Source: Candidatus Absconditabacteria bacterium (GTDB lineage Bacteria; Patescibacteriota; Gracilibacteria; Absconditabacterales; Absconditicoccaceae). From it: a DNA stretch of 64,000 nucleotides. This document shows positions 37,551 to 62,818 of this stretch, piece by piece; position 1 is the first letter of the stretch, and the number at the start of each line of letters is the position of its first letter. Made by a program: the position numbers and the translations under genes. The notes under the pieces were generated by a model. It was not told where the DNA came from. It ran no database searches and worked only from the letters and a program-made list of their open reading frames with translations. The stretch is from NCBI GenBank assembly GCA_028693445.1, contig JAQUVI010000001.1, positions 62,001 through 126,000 on the forward strand, in the 5' to 3' direction.

Positions 37551-37578
37551 TACCCCCTTCATTTAGAGGGTTTTTTTT
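37551..37578. terminator. Intrinsic terminator between convergent genes
   Basis: TACCCCCTTCATTTAGAGGG followed by nine T: a CCCT/AGGG-centred stem. It overlaps the stop codon of the minus-strand glycosyltransferase at 37577. Confidence 0.75.
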
Positions 37579-38704
37579 ATTCTTGTAAAAAATGTTCTAA
37601 ACAGAAAATTTTCTTTTTTGATATTTGATGGGAATCATGGAGGATTTCAACCAAGAAATTTGAAGGGACAAGATGTTTGTCTATTTTAGTAAGACGTTTT
37701 TTCAAAAAAGAAAGAGATAAATATTTACCAGCAACAAACAAAAAAACCGTTGGATGAATTGATTTTACCATAGAAAGGAAACTAAATAAAGTAAGTGGTG
37801 TTTTAACTTGTTGTTCGTAAAGAAGTTTTTTTGGAAATGGGAAAAAATATCCCAAATCATGATACATCATCCATCTTTCTTTTGCACAAAATTTTCCTAT
37901 CCAAACCGGCATCCATCCAAGCCATCTTAGAGTGCTATTATATCGTATAATATCTGGTTTTCGGTCTTTGCAAAATCTCCATAAAAGAAAAGAATCTACA
38001 AAATTAAAAACCCCCCATCATATTCCAAATAATTTTTTTATTTTCCCAAAGATTCCTTTTGGTAAACTTCTTCATCGAATTTTTACTTCATATCAATGTG
38101 CCTCCAAAAGTTCTTTTACATCATGAATATATGTTTCAATACCTCAAACCTTATTTATAAAATCGCTTACAAGCAATATTTTTTTATGTTTGCCAACCAA
38201 GGGAAGCAATTTTATAATCCGATTTTCTTTACTATAATTTTTTGTATCAACAATAGGTTTTCTTTTTTTTGTTTGGTCTTCCAACAAATTTAACACACAA
38301 TTAAACAATTTTTCATCAGTACAAAGTCATTCACAATCTTCCAAATTTAGATCGTCTTCTATAAATGGAACCAATCCTCCTTTTTTATATCAAATTACTG
38401 GCAATCACCAGGAAATAGCAGTCAAAGCGGTCAATCAAAATGTCTCCAAAAATGTTGATGGCATCAAACAATAATCGCAATTTTCCACATATCTTTTGAT
38501 CTCAGGCAAAGTTTTCCACCCAAAAAAATGGATATTTTTTGATTTTTCTGCCAATTCTTTTAGCTCTTCTTCATAACTTCCGGCACCAAAAACAAATAAA
38601 GAGAAAGGCAGATCTCCTCTATACAAAAACATACGAATCATGCCAAGAATCGCATCAAATCATTTTTCCCTCTCTAATCTTCCAAAATATAGGAATCCTT
38701 TCAT
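37577..38704 (-). CDS. Glycosyltransferase with GT-B halves in swapped order (GT4-like)
   Basis: 375 aa, ATG 38704 to TAA 37577, no UAA/UAG inside. Residues 1 to about 165 look like the usual C-terminal, nucleotide-sugar-binding half of a GT4 enzyme: FGRLEREKGFDAI, FVFGAGSYEEELKELA, FFGWKTLPEIKRYVENCDY, LMPSTFLETFGLTALTAISW, GLPVIGYKKGG. Residues about 174-375 look like the usual N-terminal, acceptor half: KKILLVSDFINKVGGIETYI and ending near VPSNFLVEIL. That is the reverse of normal order. CGG at 38219-38221 lies in the linker. Likely role: cell-surface glycan synthesis. An alternative is a truncated first enzyme fused to a truncated second. Confidence 0.85.
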
Positions 38705-39705: not shown

Positions 39706-40113
39706 TTAAAGTCCTTTCGCAATATACTGGACAACTCTAATAATAGAATACGAAGAAACAACAATCAATAGTCCAATAAAAGAATTTTTGATTCCAGCTT
39801 TTGCTTTTGTTGGATCTTTTCCAGTTGCTCCTGCAAAAATAAACATCAAGCCAGAAACTACTAGTGCAATTGTCACAATAGTTCATATGAAAAATGTAGC
39901 TGATAATAATATATCTTGTACAAATAATTCTGGAGAACTAGCATCAGCTATACTTGTTCTAATACCCAAAAATTGATAAATATTAAATTTGCATTGTCAA
40001 TTCAAAAGACAGTCTTGATCCATTGTTATTCACATAGGTTGCTCGTTTTGAGCAAAAGATATTGAGTTAAACAAACCTATTATTAAAATTAAAAGTCAAA
40101 ATATTTTCTTCAT
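39706..40113 (-). CDS. Small pilin-like membrane protein (T4SS pilin type)
   Basis: 135 aa. Signal peptide GLLILIIGLFNSISFA followed by AQNEQ, then two membrane helices (ATFFIGTIVTIALVVSGLMF; FIGLLIVVSSYSIIRVVQYI) joined by the short loop GATGKDPTKAKAG. This layout and loop match the TrbC/VirB2-like T4SS_pilin family that is frequent in Patescibacteria. It may form a surface filament or pore. No virB/tra partner is near, so it is an orphan here. ATG 40113, TAA 39706. Confidence 0.8.
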
Positions 40114-40269
40114 ATATATATAAGGTAGAAAAATAAAATCAGATTCTAAATTTTGTTTCTTATACATATTTTAGTTTTTATTGCAAATCTAATCTCTTTT
40201 GTTAGTATATAGTCTACTAGTCATTAGTTTGACTTTAAGATTTTCGACTTTAAAACTTTTGATTAAACC

Positions 40270-61474: not shown

Positions 61475-62818
61475 CTATGCTAATATTTTTTTATATTGTC
61501 CATAAACTAATCCAAACATTGCCATAAAAGGATATACAATCATTCTATCTACAAAACTATGCAAAACTAATCAACAAATACCAAGGCCAAAGATTCCCAA
61601 AGATAAGCTAAATAAAACATATCCCAAATATTTTTGTTGTTTTGTTTCTTTTTCCAAAAAACTTTTACGTAAAGCAATCCATCCAATCCACATAAACCAT
61701 ATATACAATATCATCCAAGCTATAAAACCAAAAATGCCGTATTCAATCCAAATTTGTAAAAATTGATTTTCTGGATTATATTCTTTATTTTCTCCTAAAT
61801 GGTGAGAAGCAGGTCAGGCTGTCCCTGGTCATTCTCCAAATCGAGTGTGGTCTTGAATTTTTTCTATAGCAAGTTTAAGATTTACAAGGTGTCATGTATT
61901 GGAAAACTGTCTATGAATTATTTGATCTCTTCCAATATATGCTACTCATCAAAAAATCAATACAATAGGTATTCATCAATAAATAAATGCTTTTTTGATA
62001 TCTTTTCTGTATTCTATCAATAATAAAATTCAAGTTTGAACTATCCAAGCAATCCATGCTGCTCTTGAAAATGTGGAAATTATAGCTAATCAATAAAGTC
62101 ATCATCAGAAAACAAAAGCTTTCCATCATCTTCTTTTTATAGCCAATACAAAAAATAATGGCCAAAAAGCAACCAAAAAGAAACCCCAACTTATAGGTCT
62201 TTCAAATAAAAACTGGTTACGAACATATCATTGATTGTATTGAGAATAATATGCGGCAGGTGGGGCTATGCCCATATCTCATTCGTAATTATACTGATTG
62301 TATCAAGCAAATTCTAATAGTCTTGGAACAAAAAAAACTACAGCCCACCAAAATAAACTTCCCCACAAAAGCCATCAAATAATTTTACTCCACCATCTTT
62401 CCATAGCTACTTTTTGATCAATAAACTCCCAAGAAACCACAGAAAAAATAAGAAATATTACAAATCATGTAATACTATATCTGAGCGAAATTATTGTTGC
62501 ACTAAGTCATGTTTGAGTGATAGCCAATCCATTTAAAATACCAAGAACACCAAAAAACAAAGTTAATATAACAAATCGTTTAATATCAAGTTTTTCCAAA
62601 AGAATTTTCCATATTTTATGTGTTCGTGTTCGATAACAAACCAAAATAAATAAAATCAGAATTATTATTTCCTTCCACATCCAAACTAAAGACCAAATTG
62701 GTCAATTTCGTCAAAGTCCAAATCCAACAAATGTTTGTAAAAAAAATTGTAACAACAATCCAACGAAAAATATTTTAATCAAGATCAATAATATATTTTG
62801 GATTTTTTCTTTCGTCAT
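61475..62818 (-). CDS. O-antigen ligase / polymerase family membrane protein
   Basis: 447 aa with about ten to twelve membrane helices and a long external loop. Wzy_C features: TFSRAAWIAWIVQTGILLLI, GRDQIIHRQFSNTGHLVNLK, the loop FGEGPGTAGPASHH and ENQFLQIWIEYGIFGFIAWM. Family members join or polymerise lipid-linked glycans on the outside. CGA codons fall in aromatic-rich membrane-edge stretches, again fitting Trp. ATG 62818, TAG 61475. mraY lies upstream on the same strand, separated by the tandem array. Whether it ligates an O-antigen or makes another glycan cannot be told. Confidence 0.88.

Follow-up and report, generated by a model that had tools for sequence, protein, structure and literature searches.

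Whether the two domains of a GT4-type glycosyltransferase can naturally stand in reverse order along one chain is the question raised by a gene in the window, the 64,000-nucleotide stretch of Candidatus Absconditabacteria DNA analysed here. The GT4 family of glycosyltransferases is very large, and its N-domain-then-C-domain architecture is normally taken as fixed. In the first-pass annotation, the gene was read as a glycosyltransferase with its two GT-B halves reversed, arising either by natural circular permutation with cuts at the domain borders or as a domain-swapped fusion dependent on pairing with another chain. The former reading is supported by Pfam matches, by the conservation across 63 genomes of domain order, exact termini and motifs, and by structure prediction. 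Taken as a whole, including the closure, role and origin proposed below, the gene very probably encodes a GT-B glycosyltransferase of GT4 type that has undergone natural circular permutation.

The reading frame of the protein exists only under genetic code 25, in which nine TGA codons are read as Gly. In this frame, on the minus strand, the motifs originally quoted are all present: FGRLEREKGF at residues 7-16, FGLTALTAISWGLPVI at residues 89-104 and KKILLVSDFINKVGGIETYI at residues 174-193. Pfam bears out the reversal, with PF00534 (Glycos_transf_1, the GT4 C-terminal domain) matching residues 4-147 (E 1.8e-18, 67.1 bits against a curated cut-off of 26.4) and PF13439 (Glyco_transf_4, the GT4 N-terminal domain) following at residues 186-366 (E 1.2e-7, 32.3 bits against a curated cut-off of 28.5). 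Because this is not the canonical N-then-C order, the protein is treated as a permuted derivative of GT4 and not as an ordinary member. The Glyco_tran_28_C and Glyco_transf_28 models, which recognise a MurG in locus L089, gave no Pfam match in the window protein up to E 10. The features of the gene are collected in Table 1.

Table 1. Features of the permuted glycosyltransferase gene (positions in the window; residues of the encoded protein)
Feature	Position	Strand	Basis or remark
Permuted GT4-type glycosyltransferase gene	37577..38704	(-)	375 aa under code 25; ATG at 38704, stop 37579..37577
GT-B C-terminal (donor-binding) domain, placed first, residues 1-158	38231..38704	(-)	PF00534; structural match 2bfw
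Junction, residues 154-174	38183..38245	(-)	Helices 154-157 and 159-170, then linker into N-domain strand 1 (DSSP, model)
GT-B N-terminal (acceptor-side) domain, placed second, residues 173-375	37580..38188	(-)	PF13439; own model compared with MshA
GRLEREKG motif, residues 8-15	38660..38683	(-)	R9, E13, K14, G15 invariant among permuted relatives
EX7E position, residues 87-95	38420..38446	(-)	E87 present; T95 in place of second Glu
GGIE motif, N-domain loop, residues 187-190	38135..38146	(-)	Conserved-motif comparison
Invariant His-Asp, residues 282-283	37856..37861	(-)	Candidate active-site pair, N-domain side

The distribution of the reversed order was assessed in several ways. A first search, covering 99 relatives, retrieved matches spanning the full length of the protein (query residues about 4-375, in a single frame), with identities of 28-76%, from dozens of further genomes. 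Inspection of the loci at ORF level then found the permuted form as one gene in 41 of the 49 genomes of the host family f1 (SR1/Absconditabacteria), a count that includes G032, with an apparent frameshift near the start, and G003, cut by a contig end. The remainder of this family comprises three genomes with split genes (G006, G012 and G018), four without an orthologue and one, G021, in which the normal order is seen as a canonical N-C fusion gene. Within the Gracilibacteria family f22 the permuted form occupies one ORF in 21 of 27 genomes, the others having an in-frame TAG (G103), a frameshift (G126) or, in four cases, no such gene, and a third family, f23, contributes a single permuted genome, G247. 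A separate contig scan agreed, locating the permuted form in SR1, Absconditabacteria and Gracilibacteria, with many of the genomes being those already counted. Elsewhere in the class and phylum the best matches are canonical, N-then-C. TGA recoding is present without permutation in family f14 of the same class, where L181 and L182 (genomes G162 and G165) are GT4 genes in canonical order that contain many in-frame TGA codons.

These results bear directly on the suspicion that a frameshift, a wrong genetic code or an assembly join, for which positions 38180-38225 had been singled out, merely mimics a reversed protein. The source is MAG data and some relatives do carry defects, namely the frameshift of G032 (L025), the TAG of G103 (L192) and the frameshift of G126 (L139). 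Nevertheless, C-then-N order in one gene recurs across 63 independent genomes, among them the single-contig G002, G007 and G011 with full-length permuted matches. In addition, no missing half lies up- or downstream in the window and reading TGA as Gly yields long frames throughout the surroundings. An artefact of this kind was accordingly rejected, its probability being practically negligible.

In structure prediction, AlphaFold2, given a single chain and a 38-row alignment, produced a confident model (pLDDT 93.8, pTM 0.89). Its first half matches the C domain of Pyrococcus abyssi glycogen synthase (2bfw; VIA Z 18.0, 152 aligned, rmsd 2.1), and residues 1-177 match residues 223-409 of MshA (3c4q_A; Z 16.3, 171 aligned, rmsd 3.2). 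The N-domain modelled alone (pLDDT 90.2) matches residues 1-197 of MshA (3c4q_B; Z 12.8, 161 aligned, rmsd 3.1). Both Rossmann domains of the GT-B fold are thus present, each half matching the corresponding domain of one solved enzyme, which excludes the pair of unrelated folds that might otherwise have been suspected. Since the two halves match MshA 223-409 and 1-197, they account for nearly the entire canonical enzyme with its order swapped. The MshA comparison was made half by half, so that the relative placement of the halves comes from the single-chain model.

The same correspondence weighs on the idea that the protein is a chimera, its halves drawn from different glycosyltransferases and fused by chance, with no single ancestor that was permuted. 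The halves are detected by separate Pfam models, as in any GT4, but they match complementary portions of a single enzyme, MshA. Furthermore, when the phylum was searched with a separate profile for either half, the same canonical proteins, in G446, G460, G372, G373, G473 and G594, were among the best. Because their nearest canonical proteins are shared, the C- and N-halves come from one GT4 subfamily. The distances of the two halves also co-vary (r 0.86; Mantel 0/2000). We regard the chimera as very improbable.

How, then, might the halves be joined? In the mechanism that we propose, the donor-binding C-terminal Rossmann domain comes first and its last helix, with a short linker, would lead into strand 1 of the acceptor-side N-terminal domain. 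In the model, helices 154-157 and 159-170 of the junction probably represent the cross-over helix. The new chain ends would sit at the site of the normal N-to-C linker. Measurements consistent with this were made on 109 loci, which overlap and hence are not independent. Nearly all permuted loci have their start Met 0-8 residues ahead of the C-domain (15 at most), and the permuted proteins end a median of two residues past the N-domain, while canonical relatives mostly have 13-24 residues separating the domains. The N-domain of the window protein itself stops about where the canonical N-to-C linker would start.

The usual cleft is most likely formed by the two domains of a single chain closing on each other, as the pTM of 0.89 and the short junction suggest. 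The competing picture is of a domain-swapped protein or one with an obligate partner, whose halves pair with a second copy or another chain and which works only as a dimer. It draws on the relatives G006, G012 and G018, in which the halves are separately encoded, and on the Alg13/Alg14 system, in which GT-B halves form heterodimers (PMC8993221). Set against it are the monomer model, in which pTM is high and residues 171-180 have a mean pLDDT of 95, and the shortness of the junction in the window protein. The partner chain initially suggested is therefore not needed, a single chain being confidently predicted as a compact two-domain protein, and we retain it as a distinctly unlikely alternative to closure within one chain.

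On that arrangement, GRLxxEKG and E87 would bind the nucleotide-sugar, and GGIE together with His282-Asp283 would complete the active site. The permuted clade keeps GRLxxEKG, the first EX7E Glu, GGIE/GGxE and the His-Asp pair. EX7E with both Glu residues is not found in the window protein, where T95 replaces the second. This change to T, N, S or I is confined to the SR1 crown subclade that holds the window; deeper permuted members have Glu or Asp. The second Glu of EX7E contacts the nucleotide in GT4 enzymes, and because it is replaced here, activity in the window's subclade is likely but not assured. Activity and use of a nucleotide-sugar donor are both inferred.

The loss of this Glu, and its replacement across the subclade by residues other than the Glu or Asp of deeper members, could alternatively mark a degenerate or re-purposed protein, still binding a sugar-nucleotide but no longer transferring the sugar. 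The remaining motif residues are, however, invariant and the gene is retained in nearly every SR1 genome. Moreover, dN/dS for the two halves is 0.12 and 0.13 against G002 and 0.15-0.29 against G001, with looser values at the junction (0.42 and 0.32, respectively), all of them rough as dS exceeds 1. Both halves are thus under purifying selection, and loss of transfer in the subclade seems unlikely.

Turning to the origin of the permutation, a concatenated-domain tree separates the permuted enzymes and their variants, as a single clade, from the canonical outgroup (100/100). The variants are diverse. In G006 the C and N genes are adjacent, with about 10 bases between them; the C-half gene there (L036:1943-2827) has an insertion of some 130 residues within the C-domain. 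In G012 the N and C genes are unlinked, on separate contigs, the C gene being complete and the N gene lacking an ATG start near a contig end with adapter-like sequence. G018 has an N gene alone: no C-domain partner was found in this genome, which is 76% complete, and the two best candidate matches were rejected, being without TGA codons and in full-length frames of canonical size. Within the tree, the SR1 clade encloses G012 and G018 (95/82), and G021 and G006 group with some Gracilibacteria (83/87).

The split and canonical relatives G006, G012, G018 and G021 point to fission and re-fusion: a canonical GT4 enzyme was most likely split into two genes, and these joined up again in reverse order before SR1 and Gracilibacteria diverged. 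This route is a proposal, to which permutation through duplication is a possible alternative. As to direction, a path from canonical through split to permuted and a scheme with later reversals are both compatible with the trees, since AU tests reject neither a position of G021 external to every permuted form (p 0.45) nor a clade of permuted forms only (p 0.23). Tentatively, and with rather more doubt than confidence, we may picture one lineage repeatedly re-wired, in which the canonical form was split and then permuted at the base of SR1 and Gracilibacteria, splitting again in G012, G018 and perhaps G006, and re-fusing canonically in G021. If true, such repeated re-wiring would constitute a natural experiment on how far a two-domain enzyme tolerates changes of topology.

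The junction is lengthened in L069 and L072, where it contains translated hairpin-rich DNA. It looks as though the halves had trapped intergenic or palindromic sequence between them, but insertion at a later time would account for it equally well. In-frame translated hairpin palindromes are seen more widely within the glycosyltransferase genes (L069:4526-4640, L072:4523-4640, L074:4871-4900, L075:1860-1900 and 2166-2220, L076:2439-2480). They encode peptides such as PPTPLYQGGN and PPSQGGN, sited at the C/N junction or in loops, and resemble palindromic elements inserted into ORFs. Viral origin or spread of the permuted gene was also considered, and rejected: one scan of viral contigs gave four partial C-domain matches and no full-length relative.

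Gene neighbourhoods offer some hints as to role. In the Gracilibacteria loci L078, L082, L084 and L088, an O-antigen ligase gene (Wzy_C) immediately precedes the permuted gene or has its end overlapped by it, and a pilin-like gene carrying an N-methylation motif comes next in L082 and L088. Nucleotidyltransferase genes are found near the permuted gene in L089 and L091, and in the latter an undecaprenyl-phosphate translocase-like gene adjoins it. The SR1 context (trmD, a T4SS pilin-like gene and others) indicates no clear role. Our best guess, by inference only, is that the enzyme probably transfers sugar in the assembly of a surface glycan, whether lipid-linked or pilin-linked. Within the window, an O-antigen ligase domain (Wzy_C) is encoded at 61712-62098 (minus strand), about 23 kb from the glycosyltransferase gene, and a small membrane protein upstream of trmD (39709-40167, minus strand) matches a type IV secretion pilin weakly, scoring under the Pfam cut-off. 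Two GT4 genes without TGA codons on the 10 kb contig C5 of G000 (L004 and L005) probably come from another organism, that genome being listed at 6% contamination.

The conservation of the permuted form, alongside split and canonical relatives, suggests that the GT-B cleft is independent of chain order, and the clade offers a natural panel of proteins for testing GT-B closure. The enzyme is kept in nearly all genomes of SR1, a group with very reduced metabolism. In practical terms, annotation or alignment that assumes domain order will misread permuted GT4 genes.

Among known systems, the closest in fold are the GT-B enzymes of GT4 itself, such as MshA, PimA, PimB' and the neighbour glycogen synthase. 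With these the window protein shares both Rossmann domains, GRLxxEKG, the first EX7E Glu, the GGIE loop and the HD pair on the N-domain side. It differs in its reversed order and in its termini at the N-to-C linker site, and its subclade lacks the second EX7E Glu. In open-licence literature the sole permuted or reversed GT-B enzyme that we found was Alg13/14, with no GT4-type or bacterial report, although this is weak evidence of absence. What appears to be new here is a GT4-type enzyme that is naturally permuted throughout a clade which also contains split and canonical versions.

The Alg13-Alg14 proteins of Entamoeba histolytica and Dictyostelium are described in PMC8993221, citing Bickel 2005 and Averbeck 2007, as reverse-order fusions. 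The likeness is considerable, a split GT-B enzyme having been re-fused with its donor half first (PMC8993221), but that lineage is MurG/GT28-like and amoebozoan, whereas the window enzyme is GT4-type and bacterial and is the standard form across its clade. The two-gene halves EpsE/EpsF and Alg14/Alg13 similarly resemble the split variants G006 and G012, yet they belong to a different GT family, while our split forms sit within a clade of fused permuted enzymes. Finally, fission followed by fusion is a general mechanism of circular permutation (review PMC3320104), and the glycosyltransferase clade likewise holds split forms and both orders of fusion side by side.
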